Shown here: piece by piece, positions 399 through 59,821 of the stretch
How positions within the stretch are numbered: position 1 is the first letter of the stretch
How the letters are laid out: each line of letters opens with the position of its first letter
DNA from: Loxodes magnus
Lineage: Eukaryota > Ciliophora > Karyorelictea > Loxodida > Loxodidae
Assembly: GCA_946699065.1 (NCBI GenBank)
Contig: CAMPDV010000235.1
Location: 248,001-312,000 of the forward strand
Length of the DNA stretch: 64,000 nt
Direction: 5' to 3'
Program-made: the position numbers and the translations under genes
Notes under the pieces: generated by a model
Told to the model about the DNA's origin: nothing
Databases searched by the model: none
Seen by the model: only the letters and a program-made list of their open reading frames with translations

Positions 399-902
399 AT
401 GGTGACAGAGAAATGGAGCAGTCAATGTATAGCTTCTTTGATCGATATTAATAAAAGTGAGTTGAATTAGTAAAAGTAGAAGAGATAGGATAATGCTTAT
501 CTTAATAAGGAGATTATAAGACTTAATGTTCAGTGGATCTAAACTACAAATAAGTATCTGAAGGGTAATTATGATATCATAGAAATACCTAAGAAATCTA
601 GTTCTTTTAAGGTTGTTCAAAAGTTATTTAAGTACAAAACTCAAGCTAACAATTGAAACTTAAATTCTAACTTTTCGACAGATTTTATATAGAAACATTT
701 TAAGAAAGCTGGGAAACCAAGTGAGGCTATTGATTAAAGATTAGGTAATAGTTTAGTAGGGGAAAAGAAAAAGGAGAGGAAAATGTTGTAAAACTTCAAA
801 ATAATAAGTTTAATATTGTAGATCTTAGCTTTGTTCTGTATTCAGTGCGTATTAATGAAATATTTAATAGAAACCCAACAAGTGAAAGGAGATAATACTT
901 GA
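399..902 (+). CDS. Small C-terminally anchored membrane protein, family of unknown function, copy 1
   Basis: Encodes 167 aa when TAA/TAG are read as Gln and TGA as Trp; it ends at TGA 900-902 and has only one internal TGA. The body is polar, rich in Lys, Gln and Asn. A hydrophobic segment of about 20 residues lies near the C-terminus and is followed by the tail CVLMKYLIETQQ. This membrane segment and tail are shared with five other divergent loci in the window (near 19.4, 37.8, 41.4, 53.6 and 59.8 kb), which is the main support for the frame. I chose the ATG at 399 because it lies in frame shortly before the conserved body. An identical-length copy lies in the right arm at 32,824-33,327. I do not recognise the family. 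A single C-terminal anchor suggests insertion into an internal membrane with the body in the cytosol, which is inference. Confidence 0.72.
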
Positions 903-1910
903 AAGTTAGTTTTATATAAATTTTGTTTATAAATAACATATGAAAATAGTCTATATCAGCTAATAAGCTAATACTCTCACAAGATTATTTCACTTAAAAT
1001 TAAAATCTCATTAAGCATTGCTAAAAAGGAGAAAGATCACCTTACAAATCTAATTTTACTGAGTTTAAATAGTAACTCTTTTTAATACCATTAGATATAT
1101 TACAACAAGCTTCTGGTTTAAGATATTAGAGCAATATTAAACATATTTGAACTACTATATATATTTAAACCCTATTCAAGAAGATTAGAAAGACTTAAAG
1201 TATTTTCAAATAATACTTTAGAATCTACTTATATACATTATATTATGATATCTCTTAATGAATATGAATATGTCAATCTAGATAATTCAACTTAAATTAT
1301 TTCAGAAATACTTTAGTTATGAATAGACTGATATTTTGCTTATGAGTGTTGAAAATAAAACATAAAGCATTCATAATAATTTCACTATATCAAATATAGT
1401 GCTTGATTCTTAAATTGATATAATTTTAGAAGGCTGCTGTATTATAAAAATTGTAGCTTTTCGATTTTTTGTCTGCTTTCAATTTTTTATTTCTACTAAC
1501 CCTTTTTAAGTTTTCATTTTATTCAAAATTAGATTGCTAGTTTCTATTTAAGTCTAGTTTGATAATCATTTAGCTTTCCATTGATTAATTGTAAAACTAG
1601 AAATTTTTATAAATTTAATATTTTTCAATTTTGAAATCAGAACGAAATATAATGCTTAGCTTCGATTATAAGTAAATAAGCCTCTAATAACTAAGTTATA
1701 TATTAGATACAATTTAAACTTAGAAGTATCTATTACTAAAATGACCATCTATATGTTGTTTGTTAGTACTATGAATGTCCTTCTTATTTAATTCATAAAG
1801 CTTTCTTAAATTATCATTTAAATCCTATTGATTTATTGATCTTAAGCTCTTTGAATATTTTATTATATACCACTTTAATTAAAATTTGCCTTACTATTAC
1901 TATTAATAAG
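903..1910. other. No gene recognised; part of the inverted arm
   Basis: AT-rich sequence mirrored at about 31,800-32,823. I see no motif or TGA-poor frame with family resemblance. Confidence 0.5.
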
Positions 1911-2800
1911 CTAGTTTATTATTATTATTATGAATAAAATTGTTTGGCCTTCTTGTAGGTATTTCAACCTATTTCTAGCCTGCCTCCAGATAGCTCTGGA
2001 GTCTAAAATTAAATGTTTGAACTCCATCTCCATCCATTGTCCTGTCTTGCTTGTTCTTGAAGTCTTCAGTTTCTCTTCCATTATTAATTGCTTTTTTTCT
2101 TGTATATATTCCCAAGAGCGTTCATCCATACCTGTTCTCTATTCTTTCTTACTTTGAGCTGTTCCTACCTCTTCTTTTTTTCCTACTATTATCTTTGCTT
2201 TTGTCAGTAACTCTGTTTGAAATTTAGGAATCTCTTACACTTCCTTCACAAGTGTTCTCTTGAGCCACACTAGTAGCAGGATTTCATTTCTCGCTTGTAT
2301 AAAGGCTTGTCAACGTTAATTTATTCGATTTCCATCTTGTCTTATTTCTAATCCCTTAATTCAATTTACTTTTGCAATGCTTGCTGATTTTCTACTAGCT
2401 GTGCTAATTTACCATCAATTTCTCTGTATTTTTAATCTTGATTCTGGGATTAGATGTTCTGACTCTGAGATATGTTCCAGAAAGCGCTTAGATCTCTCTC
2501 CTGAGACATGAGTCTTGATTCAATTTCCTCTCTTATTATGATTCTCCATTAATTTTTTATTGTCATTTTTCAGTTTCTTGACCTCTTCCTGGAGGTTCAG
2601 TATCACTTTGATGAGCTATTCCATACTCATCTGGCTAGAAGAATTGAAATCCGAAACCTCATAGTGATAAGCAGACTTCATCTACTTCCTTGGCTTCTCT
2701 TATGAGGTTGGAGTTATTGCATGTGTTGTCTTCTGAACTTGTTTCTGTTCCTCTCCAACTTTTTGGAGGTGGTGTAGAAACCTCTTTTGAATCCTTCCAT
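1911..2800 (-). mobile_element. Gag-like retroelement fossil, left-arm copy
   Basis: Reverse-strand copy of the gag-like fossil at 30,406-31,290, carried within the inverted duplication. It shows the same parts: a charged, coiled-coil-prone region, a CCHC zinc-knuckle region and a short downstream tail. No reverse transcriptase, RNase H or integrase region is recognisable in or next to it. It looks broken and is at least as old as the arm duplication. The class (LTR kin or LINE ORF1) cannot be settled from this fragment. Confidence 0.55.
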
Positions 2801-5800
2801 TTTTATCTAATAAGCTAGTTCAAGATAAAAACTTAATGTATTATTAGCATTTTTCTAAAGTATCAATTATTTAGAAACAGTTTAAAGTTTAAGTTTAGTT
2901 GACTCTAAGAGAGAAAAGGTATCCTTACCTTGTAGTTTTATTCCCTTATCTATACTCGGATTATCAGCTTATTTTTCATCTAATTGGGAGTAGAAAGCAT
3001 CAAGCAATTTTCTTATTTCTAGTGGAAAATTTTCTGTTTTAGTTATATTTAGCTGAAGAAGTTAATAACTTAATTAAAATATTTGACTGAAAGTCTTCTG
3101 AGTACTAAAATCATACTAATTACACCTTATTTGTAACTATACTCATTGAATAGAGCATGTAGGTTACAGCTATCTCAATGATTAATTAATTTACTAAGCT
3201 AAAATCTCTAATTTTATAGCTAATTCCTCAAAAACTGATGCTATAAACATTAAAAGCAACCAACTTACATTTTTAAAGCAAAGCATATCAATAAACTAGA
3301 AGTGAGTTACTATAATCAGATAGTAACTTAAACTAAGCTCTTAAGCTAAATTATATCGATAGTATTAGATTAAAGGATGTAAGCTTATTAAATAGATGCT
3401 AAATGGCTTTAATAATTAAAATTTAAGTGCTATAAATTATATTATTAAAGCTAAAGCTACTATAGATGATTAAATAGCTAATATAATTTTATTCTAATAA
3501 CTAAAATATCCTAACTATGTGTAATTTTCAGATTGCTAATAGAAAATATTTTGCATGTAAATATCTAAATTTTTAGTCCGTTTAGAAGCAGAAACCACAA
3601 CATTTTTCTCTTTGGTTTTCAAATTAATGTAAATTACATCAACTACAAATAGGAAATTTATAGCTGCTTTTGATTCTAACTTTCTAAAAGGTATAAAAAA
3701 GAGCAAAAATAGGTAGCTAAAATTGTTTAATTGGAAAAAGGAAAATAGCACTAAAAATTTAGACTTGCAAAAGCTACTAAATAAAATCCAAAATTAGTAT
3801 TTTTATTATGCACTATTTAACTAAATGGCAACTATAAAGTAGTACCTAAAGAAATATTTCTACTTTATTAACAAAACTTTAAAGCAAACAAAGATACAAA
3901 TATGTAGGCTAAGGTTTTATTAAGGACTCTTATTCAAATTCCTAGATTAGCTTTACCTTGTTTTCATTCCATAATATGAAAAGTATCTTTATGCTTTTGC
4001 AAATGAAAGTATCTTATTAAGTTCCTTTAGCCTGGTTTCAAATCAATTTAAGCAGAGATTTTAAAGATTCCTTGCTTATAATTTAGGTTATTATTATTTT
4101 ATTTCAACTAAATTAAGTTTAGAAAAGTGAATTTTAATCCAGACACATGAAGATAATACAAATTAAGTATATTAAAGAAGCTAAAGATAAGGGAAAGTGT
4201 AGTTTAAAGTGATATAGAAGCTTAACCTTTGACAAATTCCTTGCTTATCTCTTCAAAAAGAAGTAAATTTTCGAAATTTCATGTAACTTTTTTCTTTATT
4301 AAACAGGCTAAACATATTAGTCTCTCCTTAAGTTATAGAAATAAATATAATCCAGAGACATCTTAAGCTTAATATAAAAACCCTTATAATTTAATTCAAT
4401 TTTCATTATTAAAATCCTTAGCTTAAATAAAGGGAAATAATAATATGAGATATTATATCTTAGATATTTGTATTAGGTTATGCAGAATATAGCAAGAATC
4501 TTTGCATAAGATTGGAAAAATAATAGATCAGAATATTTGATAAATATCAACTTTAACTAAGTATATTTAATGCTTATGATATTAGCTTTTAATAAGAGCC
4601 ACATCGTATCTTCATTTAATTTTGGATGTAGTAATATAATCAACAAACATAAGAAATTTTCATTTTTATTTCTTATCAATGAGATAGAAGAAAGGATGAA
4701 GACAATGTAAATAGTATTGCTCTTTCGAATGTTTATTGCGGTATAAAACAATTATGCCAAGAAAAACTTTTAAGACTCTGATTTTTTATAAAATTTTAAG
4801 CATATTGAAAGAATGAAGATGCTTAAATGCATGCTATTGTAGTCAATTAATTGTTTCCTTAGAGGAAAAATATTTAATCGTTGCTTTAATCTTTTAAAAA
4901 TTTTCCGAAGCAAGTTTTGAATAAATCTCAAGGACTCAATGCAGCAACATTTGGCTGCTACTGAAAAATTTTAAATATAATTATCTTTAAAATTTTTATT
5001 AAAAATAACCTATTTTACGTTATCCCAAGAGATGCTTATAATTATTAAAGCTTATAACCTAATATTAAAATACACTCATTCATATATTTATTTTAAATTA
5101 ACTAGACTCTAAAACCAAAAATACTCTATTCAACTTTCTTTTTATTGTTCATATTCTATAAAAAAAAACCTATTTTTTTAGTTTATTCTGAGATTTTTCA
5201 AAGATATATTCTTTCAAAGCTATCTTAAATTAATATTTTAACCTAATTCCTAAATTAGCTCACTTAAAAGAAAACTTATAAAATAAGCTGTTTATACTTT
5301 TTTCACTCTCTTTATCATTAATTCTCCAGTTACATATTTAATTAAATAAAAGCTTCCTTATTAATACTATTAGAGTTAGAGTTCTGTCTATCTATTACTT
5401 AGGTATATAAGTTATTAGAGCAGCAACTTCTAAAACTTTTTCCTAAGCTCTATGCTAAGTATAAAGAATTCTATTTAATACTTTCCTTCTGAGCTAAATT
5501 AGCTCTGATTATAACCAAATTACACCATCAAATTCACTTAGCTTTAATATAGTTGATTTATGCTATTCTTTCTAGCTAATAACTAGGCTTTTTTATATAA
5601 AATCTAGAGAAATTTATTTTAATGAAAATGAGTTTTAAACGTAAATTGAGCTTCTTGGAAATCTAATTTATATCATAAATTTTATTTAACTATCTAGAAG
5701 CTTAGCTAATATAGTACGAGTATTAAGTAGCTCAATCTTTATAAATAAAATAGATTAATTAAAAAAGATATGCTTCAATCTGTTTACTCTTAAATGGGAA

Positions 5801-6217
5801 TTTAACGAGGAATACTTCTAGATTTATTTTCAAATCCAAAGCTAATTAGCCTTGGATTAAATATTCACATACTAAGTCTTTCTTTTTCAATATTTTTAGT
5901 AAACTACATATTTAATTCTGGAATAAGTAAGATTAGAAAGAAAACAATTGAAACACAAAGATTAACACATGAAAAATAATAAAGACTAAGAATGATTATT
6001 AGTTCACTTTTAAAGTGGCTAGCAAGTATTAATTCGTGAAGCTTCAGATTTTAATTTATTTAGAGATTAGAATTGATGAACTTAATATATTTAACTATCT
6101 TCTAAATAGGGATAAATATAATGAGAATTAAAGCTTTTTATTTAGATATTACTCTTAGATTTTAAGGAAATAATTATATTATTATTTCAAGGTGTTAGTT
6201 TCAATAGATTTAAAGTC
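2801..6217. other. Gene-poor stretch of the left arm, with an extra 1.5-kb segment
   Basis: Apart from the segment at 4,014-5,529 the sequence is mirrored at about 28,505-30,405. A short cysteine-rich frame near 3,540-3,750 (reverse) is also present in the right arm near 29,460-29,690, but its upstream part is out of frame between the arms, so I do not call it a gene. Confidence 0.5.
4014..5529. other. 1,516-bp segment present only in the left arm, flanked by ATC direct repeats
   Basis: The right arm runs straight across this point, joining the equivalents of 4,013 and 5,530 with a single ATC. The left arm has ATC at 4,011-4,013 and again at 5,527-5,529. The interior is AT-rich with no recognisable gene and no obvious terminal inverted repeats. 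It could be an insertion here, such as a mobile element or an internal eliminated sequence, or a deletion in the other arm by 3-bp microhomology. The boundaries are well defined by the arm comparison; the mechanism is inference. Confidence 0.8.
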
Positions 6218-9193
6218 TCAAAGACTTTCTTCATACACCCAGTTTATTATTTGCTTGCAATCTCTTGCTTTAAAAGGTTTTATAAAGAAAAGCTATGCTC
6301 CTGAATTTATAGCGTCTTCCTTCAAGCATAGATCTCCTGAAATCATTACTATTTTAACAGCTTCACTTTATCTTACATCCTTCTCTATTTCGAAACTTCT
6401 AACATACTTTATAATATCAATTCCACTAAGGTCATTCAGTTAATTGTCAGTAAGTATAGCACTAATGTTCAAGTAGTTCTATAAATAATAATTGATAGCT
6501 TCTTAATAACTCTCGGCAATTAATATTTCCACTTACATTCCTAGCATTTTGAACTCTTCTTGGAATAAAGTTCTAATAATTTGAAGTATAAAGACATCAT
6601 CGTCTATTATCAAAATCTTATTTTTGCTGTTAGTCTTTTCTATCATTCTTTGCTGCTTCTTTTTATTCCTCTATATTTCCTGCAAGATTCCTAGTATTTA
6701 CTCTTCTTGAAAATCCCTATATAAGAACTAAATATCATCTGGGAAATAAGATTTCCTTTCTTAAAATTTTTAGGAATTTTCAGCTAGTAGAAGCTTAGTG
6801 GAAATGTTAAGGATTGTATGGCTGCTTTCATATAAAGATACTATTCTTGCAAAATTTACAGCTCCTGTGTTTCTTGCTAAGTTGTCTATTAAAATTAGAT
6901 CCAAATCTTTTTATGCATGATTCTAGTATATTTGAAAAGCTATTTTGATATCATTCGTGTATTCTGCTTTACATCCCAGATGCTATAGTAGCTAGTATTT
7001 TTGTTTCAAATTTTCTCCAAATATTAGAATTTTTATATCGCTGAAATTATGTTCAATTGTAACTCCTTTATGAGCAGGTATTTATAGAGGAATTGAAATT
7101 ATGAAAGTAGATCCTTTTTCGATTTCACTTTCAAGAGTAATTGTTCCTTGCATTGTTTCTACGATTTTCTTACTTATTCAGAGTCCTAATCCAGTGCCTC
7201 CGAACTGCTTCTAAATTTAATTGTTAGCTTGTTAGAAAGGCAGGAACAGTTTCTTTTAATACTACTTACTTATCCCCAGTCCAGTATCCTTAACATATAT
7301 AATTAGATGGCCTTTTTTTTCATGACCTATTTCATATAAAACTTTGTCTGTTTATTTAACCTCTAATTAAATATTAGAACCTGTAAAGTATTGAGAAGAC
7401 TCCGAGCCTTTAGGAGTTGCATAGTTTAATTATATAGGAGACTAAACAATTTGTAGCTCTTAGGATATATTACCTGCTCCGTTAAAATTTATTTACTCTA
7501 TATCTTATTCTAAAGGCAAATCACTTCGAATTCGGATAGGTAGATTATTTGAATCTGATTCTTTTTTCAGTAAATTTTATACTTTTCTTATTTTCAAATT
7601 TTGCATCAAGTTTTGAGACTTGCATGCTGCCTCCGAAAGCTAATTTTTCTTCTTTAAGTTAAATTATTTTATTGAGCGTTTTGGTAAGGGAACAAATGGT
7701 AAATATATTTACTTCCCTGAGTATTAATCTCTGTCTTTTTTTGGAGTGAAATCACAGCTTTCTTTTGGTGTACTAACTTCAATATCCGAGCTTGTTCATT
7801 TGTTGTATTCAATTTAATCTAGCTACTTGTTTGAATACTCTTATGAACCTAAAGTTTAAAAATTTTTCTGCATAAAATTAAAAAAAGTAGGACTTGCTAT
7901 AATTTAATTAATCTCTGCTTCTTTTATAATTTCAGTCTTTTAAATGGTAGGAGAAGGAGGTTAATCTTTTGCTGTATCTTCTTTTTTATTGCTATAATTA
8001 AGATATTCTAGTTGAAAATGGTCTGCATATACTGTCTCAAGTTGGCAGTCCTTATTTCTATTACTACCTTCTTCATAGTGAGGAATTCATTCTATTTCCA
8101 CACTGACTTTTCCTTTATTTGTGAACTTAATTGCATTCCCCACTAAATTCATAAGAACTGAAATCATTCTTGACTGATCAATGAGTAAAATTTTAGGAAC
8201 TCTAGGTTTGATTTTCATTGATATGAAAAGTTCCTTTTTAGAGGCAGTTTACTCATTAGTTTTCATTATTCTTAGAACAGATTTTCTAATCTCTATAGGC
8301 TCATAATTCAGCTAAAACTTCCCTGCATCTATTTTAAAAGCATCCAGTAAGTTATTTACCATTAGTTGCAAAATATAGCCTTAATCTTACGCATTCCGAA
8401 TATAAATAACCTTATTAGGTGGGATTTCCTTAATTTCTGATTGGATCAAATCCAAACTTCCCAAAACAGTATTGAGTGGGTTTCTTAGCTCATGCACCAT
8501 AGCTGATATAAATTAGTCTTTCTACTAGAGCTAAAATTTGAAGCTATTTTCTTACTATTAAGTACATAGTTTCTGCTCTTATTTAGTGCTCTCACTATTA
8601 ACTATCTAATTTGCTTTTAAACTCTAACCTTGTAATAAAAGGAAGCTAATTAATGTTATCTAAATTTGCAAGCTTTAAGTATGTTGCTTTATTACCTAGT
8701 CTTGCAGCTAATTTTAAGAACTTACTGAAAGGGAGTCAAAAAGCTAATTTGATCAGATGATATTCAAAAAATAAACAGCTAAGCATACTAGCTGCGATAG
8801 TCTTAGGTTCTATGCCCAGTTGAAGAAGGTAACAGGGTATAGGTTAACCACAAAAGCACCTAAAAACATATATTACTAGGGAAAATTTGTAACCAGCTCT
8901 ATGCAAAGAAATCCAGCGACTGAGTAAATAAACTCTTCTCTTAGCTAAAATTTAGTCTACATCTTAACTAAGAACATAACTAATAAATAGAGCAAAAGGT
9001 TTTTAAGTAAAGAATCTAGCTTTTGCTATTCAGAAGCTTCTTCCTAGGATATAAAAATTATTTTAGCTAGCATACTAAGAGACACTATCTTGTAATAACC
9101 CTAAGAGTCTAGCCATTCATTAATGGGTTTTCTTTACTCACATTAGTTCTTTCTAGCAAAAAAGAGGTTAGTTATCAATTGTTCTAAGTACAT
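6218..9193 (-). CDS. Membrane-bound hybrid histidine kinase, left-arm copy
   Basis: Reads as 991 aa on the reverse strand from the ATG at 9,191-9,193 to a TGA at 6,218-6,220. The product would autophosphorylate on His and pass phosphate to Asp in its own receiver domain. Domains in order: five to six hydrophobic segments in the first ~200 residues, an H box with HELRNPL, an N box with NLVGNAIKF, a long Gln/Ser/Asn-rich insert, a G1 box DTGLG, an F box, a G2 box GGTGLGLW (Trp encoded by TGA), a degenerate receiver-like region and a C-terminal receiver with an acidic DDD and a Lys in the KPF motif. It is four codons shorter than the right-arm copy at 25,517-28,504 and otherwise collinear. Only small in-frame length differences and scattered substitutions were seen, so both copies may be functional. 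I did not compare every codon. Confidence 0.9.
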
Positions 9194-10080
9194 CAGCACT
9201 TATTATAAAAATGGAAATGTTATCACATAAAATATGGAAGGATATATATAAATAAGCTAATTTAAATTAATAACCTTATATCATTTTAAAGGAAATTAGT
9301 TTTAGAGCAATGTATTTTAGGTAAGTTTATTATGCTAGCTTTTAATGTTGCTTTCTTTTGCATAAGTCTGTTACTATTATATCATACTTTAGAATCTTTA
9401 GATTACTTTATTTATAAAGCTAAAACTTAGGTTATATGAAAATAGACCATAAAATGAGGTTGTTGAGATATCATTCCAGATAAAATTACTTAAATATATC
9501 TTTATAAAAAGCTAAAAATAAGCTGCTTGGAAAAGTAAATAAAATGTGCTTAAATTTCCTAGCCTTTCTACCTAATTAATATTAGTTGCATTTCAAAAAA
9601 AATAGATCAGTTGAATAAACATATCCTTATAGTTATAAATGAGATACTCTTAATAAGCTAATTACTTATAATATAAGAATTATATTGCTTATGCTATTTT
9701 ACTTTGCTCATCTTTATATAAATTCACTTGTATCATTTTACTAACTTAAGAGAGAAAATCTTGGTATGCTAGTGTATAGCAATGAGTAAATTTAGTCTAT
9801 GAAATTCATTCTATCAAAGTTAGTCTTTATGGTGGATTTAAGGAATTCTATTTTGAGGCTTAGATACATTTTGAAATAGTTAATTCTAATATCATTTTTT
9901 AGCAACTTTAATTAAAAAGTCTAGCTAGTAGGTTAAGTTATTACTATTAGAAGAACAAGGTAAGAATGATATTTACTTGATACCCTTGTATTATGCTTAG
10001 GATATTATAAAAGTATATCCAATTAAATGCTAACCAAGGATAGCAAAATCTCTTTAAATAAATTTAATATTATTTTCTAC
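9194..10080. other. No gene recognised; inner part of the left arm
   Basis: Mirrored at about 24,660-25,516. AT-rich sequence lying upstream of the kinase, where a promoter would be expected, but I see no motif I can support. Confidence 0.5.
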
Positions 10081-10690
10081 TTTAAATTTAGATTCTATAC
10101 AAAGCCTTTAAACTTTAATCTATATGAATGCTAATTTAGTTTAAAATAAGTTAAACAGATCTCTATATATGAACTAAATGGGAAGTATGGAAAGGAAATA
10201 AAGGAAATGTAAAGAGCATCTAAAAAGCAGTAGTCAAGAAATAAAATATAGTAGTAGAGGAATAAAAGGAATAGGCTTAATATATTACTATATATTTTCT
10301 ATAATTAAACATATGCAAAACCTTAATTAAGAGGTAATAAAATAAAAGAATAAATATTTAAGCTTTAGTTAATCTATTTAAGTTTTCTAAGCTAAGATAT
10401 AAGTATTTTAAATATGCGAAAGCTTCATAATACATGACATTTTAATTTTCGATAATGATAAAGCTACCGAATATCTTAAAATATTTTACTTCTCTTTGTT
10501 AGTTAAAAATTAATATTAGGTATCAAATCAAAAATCTTGGATCTTTTCCTTAAAATTTTTCAACAAGAGAGTATTGCCAAAAGATTGAGATTTCGCTCTT
10601 AATAACAAGTATTTACTATCTGAGCTGATTTAAGAGGATTTGATTGAATTAAATTAAAGAAAAATTTAAATTAAGAAGTCTGGGTATTAG
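10080..10690 (-). repeat. Dispersed ~0.6-kb repeat, copy 1 (inverted)
   Basis: Reverse complement of the copies at 14,720-15,300 and 24,170-24,660. A shared landmark is a run matching TAAACAGATC beside ACTAAATGGGAA. The copies have diverged by many substitutions and small indels. Confidence 0.8.
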
Positions 10691-15300: not shown

Positions 15301-15734
15301 TACTCTTAGTGTGTAATAATTAAGTCCTAACTTAAGAAATAAAGATAATATGGTATAGTAAAAGGAAAAGCTTTATACATTGGATAAATGATTTTAAATA
15401 TTAGTCATTATAAGTGATTTAATTAAATTGGCTACAAAAAATGTTTGCTGTAAGAATAGTGAATCTATGCTTAATATATTAGAGAATATTTTATACTCTA
15501 AATAGATTTTAAAGGATTTCATCACTTTAATATAAGAAAATATCTTCACTAATACTTCAAATAATTATGTACTATTAATTAAGCAAAAAGGTAATCATTT
15601 AGAAGCATTTTATTTATTTAGCTTATAGAAGAAGGATATTAAAGTGAGTTTAAGAAGGAATATTTAGATGCTTTTCTCCTACTATCTAATCATTTAAATA
15701 AACTTCATCAGATCATTTTATTCTTTAATATAAG

Positions 15735-17296
15735 TTAAGGATGACAATGATTATTATAAATAAGTTGAATATCTAATAATTATAATGGTGTCCTTAAAAT
15801 TATGAAGTTTAGAATTATTATCTTCCTTAGGAATCATAATTGCTATGCTATGTCTAGGGGATATAAATTTAATCATGAAAACTCTCTTACTGATGGTTCT
15901 CACTAGACAATCCTATATGATGTGAGATGCATTTATAATCACAATTTTAAGAAGAAGATTTGTTATGAAGATAAGATAATATTGGAAGCATCTGGTATTT
16001 ACTGTATTAACTGGATATTGCATTTGTGTTGTTCTACTAACAATTGAAATTGCTCTTATACGAACTAGAAAAGAACATAAAGATAATAGGGAATATTTTT
16101 GGGGTATATTTCTGGTTACTTATGCCTATATAGAAATGATTCTGTATATCATTCTATTTTAGAGAATGCTTGTATATGAAAAACACAGATCCTTTTAAAT
16201 TGGACTGGCAGATAATTCTTAACAGCCTGTCTACTAATATCTTCAAAGGCTACTCTAAGATATGAATATTGAGAATCAAAGATTAAGAATACATGCTCTA
16301 ACTTAACAATAAATTGATACATTGCCTGAAATAGAATACTCTGATTCCAAGTAGGATTTATCCCTTAATAGTACAAGTAGTGGGTGCTCTGTATGTCTAG
16401 AAGAGTTTTAAGAAGGAGACAAATTAAAAGTGCTATAGTGCAATCACTATTTTCATTTGAGTTGTATTACTAGTTGGTTGCTACAACATAATTAGTGCCC
16501 AAACTGTAGAAACATAGTGGAGATACAATGACATAAGTAATAGTTAGCTTTATTCTTCTATTTTAAACTAAATCCTAGTTTTATTTTAACTTCCTTACTC
16601 TATTTTCAACTGGACATCTTATATTCTTTTGATATAATTGGAAAATACTCTCATCATTTTTAAAGCTACTAAGCAAGCCTTAATAATTTCTGATTCTTAG
16701 AAGTATTTTAATAAAGCTAGCATAGCATTTTTTAATTAATTTAGCTTTTAAATTTTAAAGTAAAGCAAGCCAAACTTTTATCTAATATCTAGTTAATATA
16801 ATCTTTCTAATATCTTTATAATTAATAAGTTTTATCTATATGATACATATATTTTGGTATTTCTCTGTAATGGAAATTTAGGCTATTAAGAATAAACCAC
16901 TATGAAATTAAATTTTAGGATTTATTTAATAAAATTTAACTATAAAAGTGCTTGTGAATGAGAACTCATTATGTGAATATTTTAACTGATAATAGTGCTT
17001 TTAATTATAAATACCTTGTGATTTCTTCTATTTATTAGCTTGAGATATAATAAGTTCAAAATAAGGAAAATCAGATATACTTACTTTAAATGGACTTCTC
17101 TAACTATAAAGAGCTTACAGTTACCTCTATAATTCCATATCCAACATCCCATTAGTTTTTCTTTTACTGCAAGTCTAAATGAAAGCATATTGTTACTATT
17201 ATTTAAATAAACCAGATTTAAAATATTAAATATATAGATAAACTTCACACTTTAAGTTATATTTATTATGCTTAATTATAAAATAGCTTAAAGCTA
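15735..17296 (+). repeat. Older inverted duplication carrying a RING gene, copy A
   Basis: Reverse-complement partner of about 43,815-45,770. The RING coding part is highly conserved between the two, the flanks less so. Copy A lacks about 370 bp that copy B carries just downstream of the RING gene. Confidence 0.88.
15785..16531 (+). CDS. Membrane RING-H2 protein, probable E3 ubiquitin ligase
   Basis: Encodes 248 aa from the ATG at 15,785 to TGA 16,529-16,531, with two internal TGA(Trp) codons. The first half holds about four hydrophobic segments (around residues 10-30, 35-55, 70-95 and 110-135). A polar linker follows, then a C-terminal RING-H2 finger with perfect spacing: Cys201-X2-Cys204-X14-Cys219-X-His221-X2-His224-X2-Cys227-X10-Cys238-X2-Cys241. 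This is the classic architecture of membrane-embedded RING ligases that ubiquitinate substrates at the cytosolic face of internal membranes. A near-copy lies inverted at 44,963-45,649; this copy appears intact. The substrate is unknown. Termination at TGA three codons after the RING's trailing residues is shared with the copy. Confidence 0.92.
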
Positions 17297-19385
17297 GTGT
17301 ACACTAATAAAATTGTTTTTATGCTTCATGGTTACTAATTTTTCTCTAAATTCCTGCTTGATAAATAAGTTGTAGCAATCTAACTTTTCCTATCTTTTTA
17401 GATTTATATTTATATTCCTGCAATTAATGTTTAAGTGTATTGTCACTTTGAACTTAAATATTAGTACTTTAGCTTTAATTTGAATAAGAGATGCTTAGAG
17501 TTAGTATATCTTAGCTTACCCTATTAAAATTATATTAAATAAAGCTTAAAATATCTTAGAAATAGAGGTAATGTATTATTAGTTTATGCATTATGCTTTA
17601 TGAAATCAGCTAACTATATCAAAGTTTTTATATAAGCTCTATTTAAAAATGTTATACTTCTAGTTTAACTTTAGAGAATACTAGCTAAATATAAAGCCTT
17701 ATCTTTATTTAATTACTTACACTCCTTTATTATTTTGCAGGTGATCTTAAGTATTTAGTCTAGAATTTCAATACAATTAAAAGCTCTTAATTCAATTAAA
17801 GAGACATGCTAATATTGTCTTAAGTTAGGTTGCTATTATTATAGCTACAAGAATTAATTAGTAGTTTAAGAACTTTCTATGCTAGTTATACTAAAATCCA
17901 TATTAATCTAGCAAATAGGATATCTGGATATTTGTCTTTCACCATAAAGACTCTTATTAAATTCCAAACATAAACCTTTATTGCCCTATTTAAATACTTA
18001 GTGATTATAATTTCTATTAATCATAGAGTCTAGATTAGAAGAATGTAGGGTAGTTTATAAAAAGGGGTTTATGTAGCAACTTAACTTAGTGATAGATTAT
18101 TTAGTATGTAATTATATCAAACTAACTCAGCAAGCTCTATATTTTATTATACCTTATCAAACTCAATAAACAAACCATTCTTTTCATTAATCAAGCAAGA
18201 ATCGTAGACTCAACATTAACCTTTAATTAGATATATTCTTTAAACTAGATGAAGATGCTACTTCTTTATACTCGAGTATAATAGATTTAATTAAGCAAAA
18301 ATACTAAAAAATTAAACTATCTCATAAAGTTAAAAGTTCTAATAATTCTGATTTAGAGCTTATATAGCTTATTAATAAGCTTCTATTTATAAGGTATTTT
18401 GCTTTATTTATAAACCAAGATAATTATAGATACACTTATAATATTGAACCACTAGTATGAATAGGCTGCTTTAATATTCTCTTAAATATTACTATATATA
18501 GCTATTTATAGCCTTAAGTTATAGGCACTTAGATACATTTCCAATCATTTTCATAATTTACCTATTTAAGGGTTTGGCTTTTTATTCCTTATATTATCAA
18601 AGGTTCTGACTTATATTATAAGATAGGAGCAATCCCTGAATATACTTAGCTTTAAGAATATTTAAGAAATCAAGATTTAGAAAGATTACTAATTTTTAAA
18701 GAAGCAATTTGGAAGATTAACTAGAAGATATAAAATAAGCTGGTGTCCAGTTTACTGCTCTTTTAGCCTTTATAGCTAAAATTATTTAAACTTATAGAAA
18801 ATAAGCTATCTTGGCTGTATAGCCTTTAAAGGTACTTTATAGAAAGTGAATTAAAGCATATAAGAGTTTGATTTAGTCTATTAAAAGGATAAGCTACTGA
18901 TGATAATAGAATAACTGTACAACTAATCTAAAAAGCGTTGATTACTCTCTTAAATAAATAATAAAAAGATAAGTTTAAAGATATTTCTTAGGAAGCATTA
19001 CACTTATTTAGACAGTAAAATAGTTATTAAGTTCTAAGTAAGTATAAGAAAAAAGCTTACGGTTATTTAAACTGCTTATATTTAATTTAAGTCTAATAAG
19101 GAAGCTTGAAAGGCTAATTACTTAGTTATTATAAATAAGGAATAATCTAAATTAAAGCTACAACCCACTAGTCTTTTTATAGATTACTAAATTAAATTAT
19201 TTATAAATATAAGGATAATAAAGGAGTCCCTACTGCTATTCTAGTTAAAGTGAGAAGGGTAAGTTATTAAGATTAGGAATGTATAATATATATTCTGGAT
19301 GTATATGGACATAATAATAAAGATGTTAAATTTAAATTATTTATTTTTCTTTAAACAAATCAATTCTAAAATCCTTTTAATAAAT
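17297..19385. other. No gene recognised
   Basis: AT-rich stretch between the RING gene and the next small membrane-protein gene. All frames carry TGA at near-random frequency or lack any recognisable motif. Confidence 0.4.
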
Positions 19386-22885: not shown

Positions 22886-22889
22886 ATTC

Positions 22890-23060: not shown

Positions 23061-23094
23061 TAGTCTATATTTATATTATATTAAAAAAATATGG

Positions 23095-41444: not shown

Positions 41445-42978
41445 ATTTATAAAATTAAATAATTTTGATTTTTTTGTCTTAACGAAAAATTGTTCTTTAA
41501 ATCCCATCTTTATCGTTTATATCCATATCCATATACATTCAGACTATATATTAAATCTCCTATTCTATCCTTATTAAATTCTCCTCCCACTCTTTTTACT
41601 TAGAACTGGAGAAAATTACTTCCTTTTTGACTTTATAATCCATTTTATTGGATTGAATGTAAAAAGACTAGAAAAGGCTAGAGGATTGTAGCTTTTATTT
41701 GATATACTAGTTGATTTAATAATTAAGAGGCATAACCTACAAACTACCTTTTTGATAGAAGAATATTTGGCTTTTAGTAGTAATAAAGCTTAAATAAACG
41801 TAGGTTTCTTTCATATGCATACTTTAGATCTAACTACTGTTTTACTTTCTTAAATATAGAGTTTTCTATTAAGTATCTTGAAACTTAGCCCTTAGTTATA
41901 TAAATAGAGCATATAATACTTTTTAAGTTTGCTACTCAATTTTTTCTTTAATCTTTGACTCCTTTTCATTTTAATAGTCTAAACCTAATTCTTTATTTGC
42001 TTTTATTCAGTTTCTGATATATTTTTATTAAAGGTAATTAAAGCTGAATAGCTGAGTTGCTATAAAATACTATTTCAAATGTTTTTAATCACAAAGGGGA
42101 AAGTGAACAGTAGACTGATACCCAAAAATTTATGGTGTATAGATAAACTTAAAAAGTGCTTCGTTATATAAATTAGCAATCTTCCTAAAGTTGGGTATCT
42201 AAATAGTCTTAAAAGCTAGATAGAAAGTAGAGATTACTCAAGTTTTACCCTGTTAATCTAAGTTAGAACCTTTTATTTCTATCATTATTAAAAAAGAGGA
42301 TATAAAGAGTTAAAATACTAGACTATCATAACTATTTGAGGATAGAGAAGGCAATATTGAGAAAAGATCCAAGATGTACCTGAAGTGCTTAATAATGATG
42401 TCTATAAATAACTAAGCTAGTAATATTTAAGAGAGAGTATTGTAAGAATCTTTCATATTAATAGGCTCAATAATATACGTGTTATTATAATTATATTGGC
42501 TTATAAATTAAGCAAAATATCCTATAAATAGAAGCTTAACAATAAGCCTTATAATATAAACACTTGTGGAATAAGTAAAAATCAAGTTTATAAGACTATT
42601 GATATAAAGACCTTAGAGATAATTGAATTCTGAATATATTTGCTTAAATGGAAAAGTAATTAATAGATATGAGTATATGGAACTTTAATGTTTAGCTAAT
42701 TTGATATAAAAATGGAGAGAATTGAAGGAGAATGTTGAGTCAACAATTCTTGTTTGATTAATGAAAGAGCAGCATGATATATTAAGCTTAAAAAGATGTA
42801 ATAAACTATTAAGTTTATACAGTTAGGCTTTGATACTTATATAATTAGTGTTTAATTACTGAGTTAATTTGCTTAACAAAGTCCCTTTATTAAAATTAGC
42901 CCTTCATTTTTAAAGTCAAAATTATTTGATTTAAATAGAAATTGTAATCACTTTAAGCTTTGAATAAAGTAATAAAAT
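41445..42978. other. No gene recognised; possible relic of a family N-terminus
   Basis: At 42,714 an ATAAAAATGGAGAGA context nearly identical to the start of the gene at 37,814 begins a short frame with an ECW motif, but no membrane tail follows before the tRNA. It may be a truncated relic. Confidence 0.3.
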
Positions 42979-43050
42979 TCCACATCCGGGACTCGAACCC
43001 GGGTCTTTTGGGTGAAAGCCAAATATCCTAACCTGCTAGACTAATGTGGA
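42979..43050 (-). tRNA. tRNA-Glu (anticodon UUC)
   Basis: The 72-nt reverse-strand gene folds as a perfect cloverleaf. Acceptor stem is TCCACAT with ATGTGGA, D arm GTCT with GGAT, anticodon stem TTTGG with CCAAA around loop CTTTCAC, T stem CCGGG with CCCGG around TTCGAGT. The anticodon TTC reads GAA/GAG. No CCA is encoded and there is no intron. It is the only tRNA gene seen. It is not one of the suppressor-type tRNA-Gln (UUA or CUA) genes the code would need. Confidence 0.97.
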
Positions 43051-43814
43051 TCTTAAATTAACTGACATAGAAAGTTCTTAAACTACTTAATTAATTATAA
43101 ATCCTGTAAATATAATAAGAGCAAGTTAACTTTTAGAAAGGCTAAATGAATATATCACATAAAAATCCTTTATCCAAGAGTTTATAAACTCATTGCAATA
43201 ATAGAAAGATATTTAAGATATCAAAGCTAACTTGTAAAATAAACTAGGAAATTAAGTCATAAATGAAGTTTATAGTCCACTGAGACTTTAAAATTAGTCA
43301 ATTAATTCTTAAACCTAACCTTAGTATAAATGTTTTATATTCATTTCCTTTAAAACTTCAAAAATACCAACTGATTCATCAAGGTAAAAGTTTAAACTCC
43401 TCTTTCACTAAATTTTCTCTATTTCTAGGATTTTTAAAATACTTATTTTAAACCATTTTAATACTATAAATCAATAAGTCTACTATATTTCCTACCTAAA
43501 ATGAATTAAACCTTGCTGCATTGATTCTAAAGCTTAAATATTTGCATGAATATAGTGTTTGATGAATTTAAGACGAATGAAGATAAAATAAAAGTAGGTA
43601 ATATTAATAAATATCTCTATTCAAACTAAAAATGAAAACGAAGCTTATGTTGATATCTATTTCCTTATCTTAATATATAGCTTTAAGATAAATGTATATC
43701 CTAAAGGATAAGAAAGATCTTGTAGTATAATTACCTTATTTGTCTAGCAGGCTTTTAAGGAAACGTTTCCCCTTTAACCTGAGAAATTTAAAATGGCTAT
43801 TAATTAATTTGACT
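43051..43814. other. No gene recognised
   Basis: AT-rich; nothing supported. Confidence 0.4.
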
Positions 43815-44368
43815 TCCCAGCATATCCTTTAAACTATTTTATAGTTAAGCATAATAAATATAACTTAAAGCATGAAGTTTGTCTATTTACTTAATACTTT
43901 AAATCTGGCTTTTTAAGCAATAGAAGCAATATAATTTCTTTTAGACTTACAGTGCAAGAAAAACTAATGGGATGTAGGATATATAGTTATAAAGGAAACT
44001 GTAAGTTCTATATTAGTTAGAGAAGTTCAATTAAAGTAAGTATATCTGATTTTCCTTACTTTGAACTTACTAGATCTCAAGTTAATAAATAGAAGAAAGT
44101 ACAAGGTATTTATAATTAAAAGCACTATTATCAGTTAAAATATTTACATAATGAGTTCTCATTCACAAGCACTTTTATAGTTAAATTTTATTAAATAAAT
44201 CCTAAAATTTAATTGCTTAGTGGTTTATTCTTAATAGCCTAAAATTCCATTGCAGAGATATATCAAAATAAACGTATCATATAGATAAAACTTATTAATT
44301 ATAAAGATATTAAAAAGATTATATTAACTAGATATTAGGTAAAAGCTTGGCTTGCTTTACTTTAAAAT

Positions 44369-44758
44369 TCAAAAGCTAAAATTAATTAAAGTTAATTATG
44401 CTAGCTTATATTTCAGATGCTTTGCTTTATTTAATTATTTCTAAGAAACAGAAACTTTTAAAGCTTGCTTAAAAGCTTCAAAAATTATGGGAGAATAATA
44501 ATTCTTTGCATACAAATGCATTTGGAAGCTGAATCTAATTTGACCTCCGAAAATATATTCAACATAAGCTTTAGTCCATTGAATATAACATCTTTAGTAA
44601 ATAGGCTGTTCTAATTAAGCCTGTTCTTCCGCAAAAATTGTTAACCAGCGAGGTTCTCTGGTAACATTACCATATCTTGGTGCTCAATGAGCTCGAACAG
44701 AATTAATTATTGTATCATTGTCCATTTCGTAGTTATGCTGGCAACTCTAATTTCTCAT
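44369..44758 (-). CDS. Hypothetical protein downstream of RING copy B
   Basis: A 129-aa frame on the reverse strand from the ATG at 44,756-44,758 to TGA 44,369-44,371, with a single internal TGA(Trp). Composition is balanced and richer in Trp, Pro, Gly and charged residues than the surroundings (for example HWAPRYGNV, EPRWLTIFAEE and YVEYIFGGQ), which argues for coding. A second good coding stretch upstream at about 44,770-44,875 is in a different frame, so this may be the 3' part of a gene broken by a frame change, or a gene with a small intron. Most of it is missing from RING copy A. I do not recognise the family. Confidence 0.5.
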
Positions 44759-44962
44759 TCATTAATCTATCTTGAATAAATTCTCATAAATGTAACATCA
44801 GCATCAACATAAAATGACTATAAATCCATTTAAACTGGCTCTTTAGGGTATTCCCCTGTTAGATAAAGAATATAAGATGTCCAGTTGAAAAAAGACAAAG
44901 GAAGTTAAAATAAAACTAGGATTTAGTTTAAAATAGAAGAATAAAGCTAACTATTACTTATG

Positions 44963-45649
44963 TCATTGTATCTCCACTATGTTTCTACAGTTTGGGCACT
45001 AATTATGTTGTAGCAACCAACTAGTAATACAACTCAAATGAAAATAGTGATTGCACTATAGCACTTTTAATTTGTCTCCTTCTTAAAACTCTTCTAGACA
45101 TACAGAGCACCCACTACTTGTACTATTAAGGGATAAATCCTACTTGGAATCAGAGTATTCTATTTCAGGCAATGTATCAATTTATTGTTAAGTTAGAGCA
45201 TGTATTCTTAATCTTTGATTCTCAATATTCATATCTTAGAGTAGCCTTTGAAGATATTAGTAGACAGGCTGTTAAGAATTATCTGCCAGTCCTATTTAAA
45301 AGGATCTGTGTTTTTCATATACAAGCATCCTCTAAAATAGAATGATATACAGAATCATTTCTATATAGGCATAAGTAACCAGAAATATACCCCAAAAATA
45401 TTCATTATTATCTTTATGATCTTTTCTAGCTCGTATAAGAGCAATTTCAGTAGTAAGTAGAACAACACAAATACAATATCCAGTTAATATAGCAAATACG
45501 AAGTGCTTCCAATATTTTCTTATCTTAGAAAAAAAACTTTACCTGAAAACTGAGATTAGAAACAGATCTCACAGCATATAAAATTATCTAGTGAGAAACA
45601 TTAAAAAGAGAGTTGCCATAATAAGATCTATATCCCCTAGACATAACAT
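44963..45649 (-). CDS. Membrane RING-H2 protein, inverted near-copy with altered N-terminus
   Basis: From the internal ATG at 45,647-45,649 to TGA 44,963-44,965 it gives 228 aa, with the same four hydrophobic segments less part of the first and an identical RING-H2 finger. Relative to the copy at 15,785-16,531 there is one extra T at 45,660-45,661 (GAATTC against GAATC) that puts the original ATG (45,708-45,710) out of frame. The RING domain and linker are almost unchanged, while the region around the second membrane segment has several substitutions. It could still be active from the internal start, be a young pseudogene, or reflect a sequencing error. Confidence 0.78.
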
Positions 45650-45770
45650 AGCAATTATGATTCCTAAGGAAGATAATAATTCTAAACTTCTGAAGTTTAA
45701 GGACACCATTATATTTATTAGATATTCAACTTATTTTAAATAATCATTGTTATCCTTAACTTATATTACG

Positions 45771-53095: not shown

Positions 53096-53602
53096 TTAAT
53101 CTTATCTAGTGTCTATAAGGTATTTTATTAAGCAGCTTTGAATTATAAAGAGAATAACTAATGAACTTATGAAAACGCTGGTCTCTCATAACTTTTGGTA
53201 GCGGGTTTCTAGGTTTTCACTAGTTTTTATTTCTTTCTTGGCAGTTTGTATGCTTTTTAGATTTTAAGACTATTAGATTTTTCTTTCTTCTTGTATAGGT
53301 CAGCAATTTTCTATGCATTTGGTGTAAGTTGTATTTGGACTCATAGAAGCTAGAGAATCAATTTAATCTATTTCACTATCTTAATTAGGATTAGAAGCGC
53401 ATGTTACTTATTATGAGGGAAATTTCTAAGGTAGTTAGACTCCAAAATTTGAGTGTAGCATGATCTAATTACATATCCAAATTTCCTTTTAATCAAGATT
53501 TGTCTGCTAATCTTTATCTTCCGGCTTGATATCCTTTCAATCCTTTTAATCTTAAGACTTGATGGTAGTTTCCTAGTGACATTTCTTCTTCCAAAGTTCC
53601 AT
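53096..53602 (-). CDS. Small C-terminally anchored membrane protein, family of unknown function, copy 6
   Basis: Encodes 168 aa on the reverse strand from the ATG at 53,600-53,602 to a TAA at 53,096-53,098 (a TAA two codons earlier at 53,102-53,104 is the alternative stop). Three internal TGA codons are read as Trp. It has a polar N-terminus starting MELWKKKC, two further Cys near the middle (CIENC), and a membrane segment followed by QSCLIKYLIDTR, matching the tail of copy 5. No TGA stop lies near the tail; reading TAA as Gln would extend it far into AT-rich sequence, so TAA termination is inferred. Confidence 0.8.
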
Positions 53603-57151: not shown

Positions 57152-59281
57152 CTTATTTGAATAAATGTATCCCTATTTTATTATATTTAACTAGAAGGAT
57201 TTATATCTAACTCTAAATAAAAAACTAAGGCATTTAGATTTATAATAGCTTTAAGTTATATAAATTTATCAACTATCTAAAAGATCCAGTTTACAGAACT
57301 TTCCCTTAAGTCTGGAAAAGTTTAAATACCCTTTAAAATATATCCTATCTAACCTCTCTACCATAGCTCTATTCTATTCAACTTCCTCATATCTCTTTCT
57401 TCCTATACTTTTTAATTAATAAGAGTCTTTTAATTTATTAAATGTGCTTAAATAAGTTTTATAACTTATCTAGAGATCCCTGTTCTTTTTAATCACTATA
57501 TACCCTTAATAGCATTTTATAACAATTATTTTCTTTTCTTTTCATTAAGTTTTTTTATCAAATTTATTAAGCACTAATAGAGTTAGCTAAGATAACCTTA
57601 TGATGGACTTATAGTATTTTAAACAGTATTACTAAAAAATAAAGGTATCTCATTTTTCGTTATATATTGACTAAATTAAATCAATTTTTAGGTTTGAAAT
57701 AGATATTTTATCTTATGCCCATGATAATGAATTCCTATAACTACTAAAAGCTAGCTATTAGTATTTAACTATGACTCTTTATACAAATAAGCGTTATATA
57801 AATCTCTCAGATCCTTTAGTATTTTATAATCAAACTGCTTATCCTTAGTTTTAAAGGTCCTATATTAGTTTTTTTGAGAAGTATCAATAGTTTAAATAAA
57901 AGATTTAAAGCTCTAATCTTCAGATATTTCCTTAACTACTCTATAATACATAAAGTCCTTTATTTTTTATTAAGCTAAGTAAATATTCTAATTGTTCCAC
58001 TCTACACAGATTAAGTTAGAGGAATATAAAGAATTAGATAACTATGATAAAACTTTGATAATTAACTGGCTAAGAGAGTAGAGGATACGCTTTAATATCT
58101 TTCAATTGCTAAGAATTAAATAAAGGAAATTTCATGAGTTAGGTTTTATTAGTATATCTGCTTGAAATTTAAGTGCTGAGATGTTAAGAAATTTTATTAA
58201 TTTTTAAAAGGGAAAAACACTTAAAACTTAAATAAGTAACAGAGTTCTTAAAAGGCTTTCTTGATTAAGCTAGTTAAATAATGCTTACGAAGTTTTAGCA
58301 GTTTTCCAAATATAGAACAAAAGTCCTGAATTTTAAGATTTGAACCTTGGCTTGTTTTCTAGCAATACAAAACTCTTAGCATTTTGGCCATTATATATAG
58401 AAGAAATGAGTAATAGAGGACTAAAGTATTAATTGATTTAAGTTAGTTATAAAATAATAAAATTGAATAAGAAATAGTTCTTAATCTTATTTTAAAGGAT
58501 TAGGCTAGATTTTACAGTCATATTTTACGTTCAACTTAAAATAGCTCTTTCTTTAAGTTCCTTTATTCTTATAGCCCCTTTAATAATAGCGCTTCATGAT
58601 TTAGTATAGTCTAAGAATCTTTCATATATGATGCTTATATCTAATTTATAATTAAAAGCTTCAATTTTAGCCATAAAACTGAATGAAAAAAGGCAGAAAA
58701 TAAGAAATGCTTCTAGAATTAGGGATACTAATTCCTATGCTATTTTAGATTCAACGTTAAATTTTCATTCAAGCAGATAAAATAATAAAAGTTGCTTTTA
58801 AGATTGATACTTTTTAATGGGTGACTAGTTAATGATAGAATGAGCAGCTTTATTAGCAAGTAATTAAATAGATTCTAAAAATAGAAATATTATAATGCTT
58901 TCTTCCTTTATAGCTTTATATCTAGTTTTTGAATAATGCTTTTGTGAAATTTGATGTTCAGTTATTAAAGGATGCTGAGAAGTATGTAAGATTACTTAAA
59001 TCTTAGAATTATTATTGTTATACTTCGAACTTTTAACCCTTTTTTTAAATAATTTAGGCTATAAAATTTTTTATTATAAAGATAGTTTAAATATGAGTAG
59101 AGGAAATAGAAACGTAACGACATTAAAGGAAAAAATAGATCTGCTTATGTAAAATAAAATTGATGTCTCTTAATAATGTAGCTCGTATATCTACGTTATG
59201 CCATCCTCTTAACTTAGTGATATAAGCTTTCTTGTGGTGAGTATGATTTAATTAATAATATTAAACTAAAAGTCTTCGCTT
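57152..59281. other. No gene recognised
   Basis: AT-rich; nothing supported. Confidence 0.4.
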
Positions 59282-59821
59282 TTATTCACTTCTTGTATCT
59301 ACAATATGCATTACTAAAAGACACTGAGTTACAAATAAAATCAGCATGGACAGAATGAAAACCCAGTTTATACCTCTATCTTGAAATTCTTAGTCTCGCT
59401 ATTCTTTGTCTTTTTTATTAGCTTTTATGATTTCTTCGTTTTGCTTTCAAATTGTATTCTTTACGCGTTCTTTGCTAGAAAACTTCACAGACAAAACTTT
59501 TGCTTAATTAATAATTGTGGACCTAGGACTTGGCGAAATTTGGGATTCTATTTCATCTGCCTCTCATTGCGTATCAAAAACTTTATGCAAGCATTCAAAC
59601 GATTTAGCCTTCCTCGGTACTATCAGCACTTATTAAGGCTACTGTTAAAAAACATTATTGCTCAATCCCTTTTGTTTCTAATACATCTGTATTTCTTAAT
59701 AAATTAGTTGCTTTTTATTCAATCTAAATCGAGATCCTCCCTGAAGCTTAATGTACTTTTATTATAAAGTAGGTAAATTTTTGGATACCTAGCTCCACAT
59801 CCTATTATTATAATGCTCCAT
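59282..59821 (-). CDS. Small C-terminally anchored membrane protein, family of unknown function, copy 4
   Basis: Encodes 179 aa on the reverse strand from the ATG at 59,819-59,821 to a TAA at 59,282-59,284, with two internal TGA(Trp) codons. The N-terminus has MWSQV (compare DWSNN in copy 3). The middle is mixed charged, with FDTQWEADEIES and a Lys-rich stretch before the anchor. The membrane segment ends LFVTQCLLVMHIVDTRSE, aligning with the QC...T tail of the family but with HIV in place of YLI. It is the most divergent member. The conventional forward-strand frame at 59,381-59,707 is its shadow. Reading TAA as Gln gives no TGA within at least 80 codons, supporting a TAA stop. Confidence 0.78.

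Follow-up and report, generated by a model that had tools for sequence, protein, structure and literature searches.

Seven loci in the window, by which we mean the whole 64,000-nucleotide stretch of Loxodes magnus DNA analysed here, encode a family of small proteins in which a single C-terminal membrane segment is followed by a short shared tail. The family members are protein-coding genes, with purifying selection in the one pair for which it is measurable (B and C in Table 1). The reading that we favor, with a probability of roughly one in two, is that they are small tail-anchored membrane proteins of the ER or secretory type in a ciliate-like nuclear genome, with a cytosolic body and a constant anchor and tail that would serve for docking; on this view they probably act as adaptors attached to a single internal membrane.

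Table 1. Loci of the protein family and arms of the inverted duplications, in positions of the window.
Feature	Position	Strand	Description
A1	399..902	+	167 aa; proposed stop TGA; anchor and tail 801-899
A2	32824..33327	-	copy of A1 with one synonymous change; anchor and tail 32827-32925
B	19386..19871	+	161 aa; proposed stop TAA; anchor and tail 19782-19868
C	40959..41444	-	161 aa; proposed stop TGA; paralogue of B; anchor and tail 40962-41042
D	37814..38356	+	180 aa; proposed stop TGA; anchor and tail 38270-38353
E	53096..53602	-	168 aa; proposed stop TAA; QS replaces QC; anchor and tail 53099-53182
F	59282..59821	-	179 aa; proposed stop TAA; MHIVDT replaces KYLIDT; anchor and tail 59285-59368
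Left arm, inverted segmental duplication with A1	1..10508		3.9-5.4 kb partly unaligned
Right arm, inverted segmental duplication with A2	24181..33725		
Left arm, older inverted duplication	15726..19858		reaches through B
Right arm, older inverted duplication	40966..45768		reaches through C

The open reading frames emerge when TAA and TAG are read as glutamine and TGA as tryptophan. Their coordinates are those claimed in a sequence-only reading of this DNA, which also proposed genetic codes 27 or 28 and proteins of 161–180 aa with one C-terminal membrane segment; translation under codes like these is supported, and the protein sizes and the segment are borne out at all seven loci. That this is a real protein family is confirmed by the alignment, the profile scores, the patterns at starts and stops, and selection. 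First, all seven proteins end in LFxxQ[CS]xL...[E/D]T (anchor-tail consensus LFxxQCxLxKYLI[E/D]T), and M1, L, F, Q, L and T are invariant in an alignment of the six distinct proteins. The tail described earlier, QC...KYLI(E/D)T, holds in A–D, that is in four of the six distinct copies, and not in E or F. Second, leave-one-out scores against a profile of the other five run from 30.4 to 88.1 bits for the full proteins and from 26.5 to 49.8 bits for the last 36 residues. The bodies score above the best of 200 shuffles in four of six cases (B, C, D and F, with B and C each supporting the other), and no significant relationship of the A and E bodies to the others emerges from the same test. Third, a six-frame profile search of the window recovers all seven loci, six of which had contributed to the profile; no further hit exceeds 6.0 bits. 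The motif K[YFH][LI][IV][ED]T occurs in the window only at six of the seven loci, the exception being F; looser pieces, for example LF..Q[CSA].L, are also present at two unrelated places.

The estimate of dN/dS is limited to B and C, as in every other diverged pair the synonymous sites are close to saturation across the full frame. It is 0.286 for the whole frame, 0.293 for the body and 0.165 for the tail, against a median of 1.08 and a 1% point of 0.597 in a neutral simulation. The sequence-only reading had proposed such a comparison between copies 2 and 3; for B and C, the one pair in which it is measurable, the value is well under 1. Its view that the bodies diverge while the anchor and tail stay constant stands as regards the shared anchor and tail, but the body is itself constrained in this pair, and diversifying selection is ruled out for B and C. 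Among the tails, pN is lower than pS in all 15 pairs and pS is at least 0.75 in eight of the 15, so the constraint acts on the protein; conservation of the tail at the DNA or RNA level is ruled out by the same values. Chance translation of AT-rich DNA was also rejected, on the leave-one-out profiles, the gap pattern between B and C, dN/dS, the thinning of stop-like codons and the start context.

All six distinct members begin with ATGG (base rate 239 of 1690), and in a leave-one-out scoring of start context the family starts rank 4–36 among 1689 ATGs. At the other end, in-frame stop-like codons fall from 73 of 866 codons in the bodies of the distinct members to two of 150 in their last 25 codons, and glutamines written TAA or TAG from 64 of 93 to two of 11; the last 25 codons of the window's three histidine-kinase genes include 1, 1 and 0 of the stop-like kind. 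Because stop-like codons drop toward gene ends, we read termination as context-dependent. All three stop codons are used as sense, as is required of table 28: TAG occupies 20 codons in the family bodies, a HATPase_c domain spans an in-frame TGA (48899–48901), and TAA codes for the invariant tail glutamine of B. A further in-frame TAA stands two codons ahead of the proposed TAA stop of E. The assignment of TAG to glutamine is probable, from the alignment and from knowledge of such codes. The window's genes resemble those of Condylostoma magnum (table 28, PMC4967479) and of karyorelicts (table 27, PMC11441545) in having TAA, TAG and TGA as sense inside genes and thinned before their ends; for the window, the code is read from the sequence.

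It is improbable, in our judgment, that the tail is not the C-terminus and that the frames continue, either by readthrough of TAA as glutamine in the manner of code 27 or by splicing, so that the helix would be internal to longer proteins. Judged only from the alignment and codon thinning, TAA appears to be the end codon of B, E and F, and with TGA as the sole stop they would extend by just 72, 35 and 108 codons; TGA is also where the window's kinase genes end. However, TGA is the proposed end of A, C and D, the stops of D, E and F coincide in the alignment after T-R-x-[D/E], and stop-like codons thin out right before the proposed ends. Moreover, gap runs between B and C are never triplets after the stop (0 of 9), and in their flanks triplets are three of 24; inside the frame the gaps are of 3, 3 and, just ahead of the stop, 2. 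Against the family as called here stands a rough codon-usage scan, whose first training set included some of these genes: it picked up B, E and F but missed A, C and D, and it lengthened F by 273 nt upstream of the proposed ATG.

The region is repeat-rich, with nested inverted duplications. A1 and A2 lie in an inverted segmental duplication of about 10 kb (1–10.5 kb against 24.2–33.7 kb) and differ by one synonymous base in 504, and B and C lie in an older inverted duplication that retains 67% identity over 3126 alignment columns spanning the gene and its flanks. Since both pairs are duplicated blocks, the seven loci represent five lineages. The earlier account of six divergent copies at high density plus a recent duplicate needs revising to this extent: the near-identical copy is there, as part of the larger duplication, but the divergent copies reduce to five lineages, and block duplication accounts for part of the density. 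With 2.5 kb compared on each side (only 398 upstream of A1), extended flank similarity is found only in A1/A2 and B/C, and A, D, E and F share no flanks; a mobile element carrying the gene is therefore disfavoured. Three short matches are taken as tail homology or AT-rich chance: one of 29 nt between A and B within the anchor-tail, one of 36 nt that links a site about 2.2 kb upstream of B with one just upstream of D, and one of 44 nt, lacking the tail motif in every frame, between C (2.4 kb downstream) and the tail of E. A search for a nearby telomere gave no match to two CCCTAACA units. Such a repeat-rich setting is where decaying copies or mobile-element cargo might be expected, but that these loci are non-functional is extremely improbable given the low dN/dS of B and C, the conserved starts, the codon patterns at the ends and the unshared flanks of A, D, E and F.

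The best 19-residue hydropathy window lies at the C-terminus in each of the six distinct members (1.75–2.6), the next best is at most 0.43, and no second hydrophobic segment is seen with such windows. All six have the single C-terminal membrane segment expected of tail-anchored proteins and the short tail as well, 8–14 residues following the anchor given the proposed stops; an N-terminal signal peptide is lacking, as judged by the absence of any other hydrophobic stretch in these windows. The net charge is +1 to +5 over the 20 residues ahead of the helix and -1 to +1 in the tail. The charge ahead of the anchor suggests that the body is cytosolic, and a lumenal tail serving as a signal would fit. 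PMC5450235 gives mean tail charges of 0.21 for ER, 1.12 for mitochondrial and 6.03 for peroxisomal tail-anchored proteins; the family is near the ER group, under targeting rules that apply there to mammals and yeast. Helix GRAVY is 1.49–2.6, and the lowest value, that of D, falls short of the 1.75 that the same paper quotes for the yeast ER. As in the tail-anchored proteins it describes, there is a single segment at the extreme C-terminus, a short tail of near-zero charge and a polar N-terminal body; unlike in them, the anchor-tail is far better conserved than the body across paralogues, and no sequence relative was found in our searches. We consider it very improbable that these are surface, receptor or mating-type-like proteins with variable bodies facing outward, as had been suggested. 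Multiple copies, divergent bodies and a duplication-rich region are what such proteins might show, but the B/C body is under purifying selection, the charge pattern points to a cytosolic body, and there is no signal-peptide-like segment.

Among 814 candidates in a protein database none is a homologue at E up to 10, and the same database also came up empty for a control, the window's RING/B-box/kelch protein (4418 candidates, none at E up to 0.001). As a further control, one of the window's kinases gave 263 matches, and all organisms named among the 120 matches listed are bacterial. Because the first control failed and the organisms named in the kinase listing are bacterial, absence from this database says little about ciliates. 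PDB sequences hold no match for the family, and viral contigs, searched with D only, gave eight pattern matches and no relative. In Pfam, searched with six members at E up to 10 through HMMER filters that discard most weak matches, there is no KASH or SNARE family and no regulin match. Five families (DUF7381, TMEM107, MT0933_antitox, OPT and DUF3899) are each matched by one of the six members at E 0.007–0.17 and are taken as chance.

These searches bear on the possibility, which we think unlikely, that the family belongs to an established class of tail-anchored proteins, for instance the KASH-type linkers of the nuclear envelope or SNARE-like fusion proteins, but has diverged beyond the reach of sequence profiles. 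KASH proteins combine a constant membrane helix and short tail with divergent cytosolic parts, as this family does, but their C-terminus is proline-rich, whereas the six tails are 8–14 residues long without a single proline. SNAREs resemble the family in size, in the C-terminal anchor and in the long helix leading into it. The AlphaFold model of D, which also counts toward the tail-anchored reading favored here, has such a helix (residues 110–179), with block means of 82, 93 and 79 over residues 151–180 and values below 50 over residues 58–109, in a model that is weak overall (mean pLDDT 56.8, pTM 0.22). However, the SNARE motif is of fixed length, and here length varies just ahead of the anchor, a stretch of D, E and F being missing from B and C in the alignment. 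The lack of Pfam and PDB matches counts against both classes.

The same lack weighs on a reading that we hold to be rather improbable, in which these proteins regulate a membrane pump or channel through their single helix, as phospholamban or sarcolipin do, with helix and tail binding the transporter and phosphorylation of the body relieving it. Constraint is concentrated in the helix and tail, basic-serine sites occur in four of six bodies, and regulins likewise have a conserved helix with an LF pair and, in sarcolipin, a short conserved lumenal tail; their bodies, however, are much shorter than those of this family.

For small tail-anchored proteins of the ER or secretory type, we propose the following. 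The genome would read TAA and TAG as glutamine and TGA as tryptophan except near gene ends. The polar body of about 130–150 residues would stay in the cytosol while the helix is inserted post-translationally into an ER or secretory membrane, and the constant anchor and tail would dock on one conserved partner or confine the protein to a single compartment. Against this, a test for a conserved helical face of the anchor was not significant (p 0.115). The bodies, divergent and largely disordered, may each bring in different cytosolic clients, possibly switched by phosphorylation (a [KR][KR]xxS[FI] site is present in the bodies of A, C, D and F; those of D, E and F have S-P sites), and copies would have been gained through segmental, inverted duplication. 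More speculatively, and at odds we consider long, LFxxQCxLxKYLI[E/D]T might be a lineage-specific docking code for a single membrane or lumenal partner, following the logic of KASH and SUN with unrelated components. The duplicating family would then be a toolkit that plugs different disordered cytosolic modules into that site, in a ciliate with no dedicated stop codon in its genes.

The loci constitute a well-bounded gene family in a genome where gene calling is hard, each stop codon also being able to act as sense. Toward the end of these genes glutamine shifts from TAA/TAG to CAA/CAG, a pattern seen in a handful of short paralogues that could aid in locating where genes stop in genomes of this type. 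Should the anchor-tail turn out to be a docking signal, the family would be a new protist example of a fixed membrane address with a variable body.

Seven loci in the window encode small proteins with a variable body, a single C-terminal membrane segment (the anchor) and a short shared tail, and together they constitute a real protein family in which the anchor and tail are the best conserved part. With TAA and TAG read as Gln and TGA as Trp, each locus is a single open frame of 161–180 residues. Two of the loci (A1 and A2, together A) are near-identical, leaving six distinct proteins, A to F, whose alignment spans 199 columns with an invariant Met1 and invariant L, F, Q, L and T residues near the C-terminal end. 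When a profile built from five members is used to score the sixth, the full proteins score 30.4–88.1 bits and the last 36 residues 26.5–49.8 bits; for B, C, D and F the body alone outscores each of 200 shuffles (B and C support one another), which is not the case for A and E. Run against the window in six frames, the profile recovers the seven loci, six of which had gone into it, and no other match above 6.0 bits. The full tail described in the sequence-only reading, QC...KYLI(E/D)T, is carried by A to D; in E the QC is replaced by QS, and F reads MHIVDT. The pattern K[YFH][LI][IV][ED]T is confined within the window to six of the seven loci, and looser pieces of the tail motif occur at other places too.

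Features of the window (positions within the window)
Feature	Position	Strand	Remarks
A1	399-902	+	family locus
A2	32824-33327	-	family locus
B	19386-19871	+	family locus
C	40959-41444	-	family locus
D	37814-38356	+	family locus
E	53096-53602	-	family locus
F	59282-59821	-	family locus
Hybrid histidine kinase copy 1	6221-8752	-	HisKA, HATPase_c, response regulator; domain scan
Hybrid histidine kinase copy 2	25961-28501	+	judged from similarity to copy 1
Hybrid histidine kinase copy 3	47354-49861	+	HisKA, HATPase_c, response regulator; domain scan
RING finger, B-box, kelch repeat protein	55262-57262	+	
tRNA-Glu(TTC)	42978-43050	-	only tRNA gene found in window
Segmental duplication carrying A1/A2	1-10.5 kb vs 24.2-33.7 kb	inverted	
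Near-identical tract	1-927 vs 32799-33725		within A1/A2 duplication
Duplicated gene	30243-31772; 1639-3102	+; -	one copy per arm of A1/A2 duplication
Part of older duplication	15726-17293 vs 43827-45768	inverted	

Four lines of evidence agree that these loci are real genes. For B against C, dN/dS is 0.286 over the whole frame (body 0.293, tail 0.165), and neutral simulations (n = 500) have a median of 1.08 and a 1% point of 0.597. Gaps within the B/C frame are of 3 and 3, plus a 2 right ahead of the stop, whereas the flanks, counting end gaps, have 24 gap runs of which 3 are triplets. Each of the six distinct start codons is followed by G (ATGG), as are 239 of the window's 1690 ATGs, and they rank 26, 7, 4, 10, 36 and 7 of 1689 by a leave-one-out start-context score. 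Of 866 body codons 73 are in-frame TAA, TAG or TGA, compared with 2 of 150 over the final 25 codons (p 0.001); the share of Gln codons that are TAA or TAG drops likewise, from 64 of 93 to 2 of 11 (p 0.0017). These counts are not fully independent because B and C are related. Pointing the other way, a rough codon-usage scan, whose initial training included some of these genes, recovered B, E and F and missed A, C and D; it extended F by 273 nt on the 5' side of its proposed ATG.

The window has a GC content of 25.8%, a composition that, taken with the genetic code, suggests a heterotrich- or karyorelict-like ciliate. The hybrid histidine kinase copies, two of three lying in arms of an inverted duplication, carry in-frame TGA as sense. 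In copy 3 the HATPase_c match ends at profile position 77 and restarts at 79 across an in-frame TGA, and becomes a single match (E 1.3e-22) once the TGA is read through, showing that TGA is a sense codon within this gene. The last 25 codons of the three copies hold 1, 1 and 0 stop-like codons, and all end ESL-TGA. Thinning of stop-like codons ahead of the true gene end is described for Condylostoma (PMC4967479), and Loxodes shows it for UGA and UAA (PMC11441545). The apparent stop of the family genes is TGA in A, C and D and TAA in B, E and F. The stop position is common to D, E and F (T-R-x-[D/E]-stop), which favours a table-28-like code for the window. However, E has a second in-frame TAA two codons before its proposed stop, and were TGA the sole stop, B, E and F would be longer by 72, 35 and 108 codons.

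The first count, six divergent loci and a recent duplicate, holds for the number of loci but not of lineages: there are five, since A1/A2 and B/C are duplication pairs and A, D, E and F share no extended flank similarity (2.5 kb compared; for A1, 398 bases upstream). A2 differs from A1 by one synonymous base in 504 but is not an isolated copy, as it sits within an inverted segmental duplication whose arms are ~82–100% identical per 300-base window, counting those in which 290 bases or more align; parts of the stretch at 3.9–5.4 kb are unaligned. Around these genes is a 927-base tract with a single mismatch, ~400 upstream bases included; the adjoining 0.6 kb differ by 1–3% and the same duplication elsewhere by up to 18%, and the tract looks like a gene-conversion tract or very recent exchange. 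Both arms also show the strong coding signal of one further gene, at which ~520 gap columns separate the two arms near 1.8–2.1 kb; neither Pfam (above cut-off) nor PDB gives a match for it. B and C belong to an older inverted duplication, 67% identical across 3126 alignment columns. In one part of it the listed pieces are 82–94% complementary, and the two longest frames there match nothing in Pfam.

A single hydrophobic segment lies at the C-terminal end of every protein; the runner-up 19-residue window reaches at most 0.43 (Kyte-Doolittle). Net charge is +1 to +5 over the 20 residues preceding the helix and -1 to +1 over the 8–14 residues following it; mean tail charges given for mammalian tail-anchored proteins in PMC5450235 are 0.21 (ER), 1.12 (mitochondria) and 6.03 (peroxisome). 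Helix GRAVY is 1.49–2.6, and five of the six exceed the mark of 1.75 given there for yeast ER anchors, D lying below it. An AlphaFold model of D from the six-row alignment is weak overall (mean pLDDT 56.8, pTM 0.22), with residues 58-109 below 50 and a helix at 110-179 (block means 82, 93 and 79 over 151-180). Weakly shared blocks in the bodies include [KR][KR]xxS[FI] (A, C, D and F) and S-P (D, E and F), which may be phosphorylation sites. Within the helix, an invariant Gln and a Cys that hardly varies point to a possible helix-helix contact, but a test for a conserved helical face is not significant (p 0.115).

Five Pfam families are each matched by one of the six members (E 0.007–0.17), matches regarded as fortuitous; none of the five is a KASH, SNARE or phospholamban family, and there is no PDB sequence match. 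A protein database gives no relative among 814 candidates (E up to 10), but it also gives none among 4418 candidates (E up to 0.001) for the window's own RING/B-box/kelch protein, so a negative result there carries little weight for ciliates. D has no relative in viral contigs. Among the open papers listed by searches of one collection, no title or opening of an abstract describes such a ciliate family, which is weak evidence that it is new.

A receptor- or mating-type-like role, raised in the sequence-only reading, is not favoured, because the variable part probably faces the cytosol and B and C, the one measurable pair, are under purifying selection. The family is real, well-bounded and tail-anchored, ordinary in kind and possibly lineage-specific. 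Its anchor and tail may be a constant part, giving the protein a set place in the membrane or a surface for docking, on which cytosolic bodies would be exchangeable.
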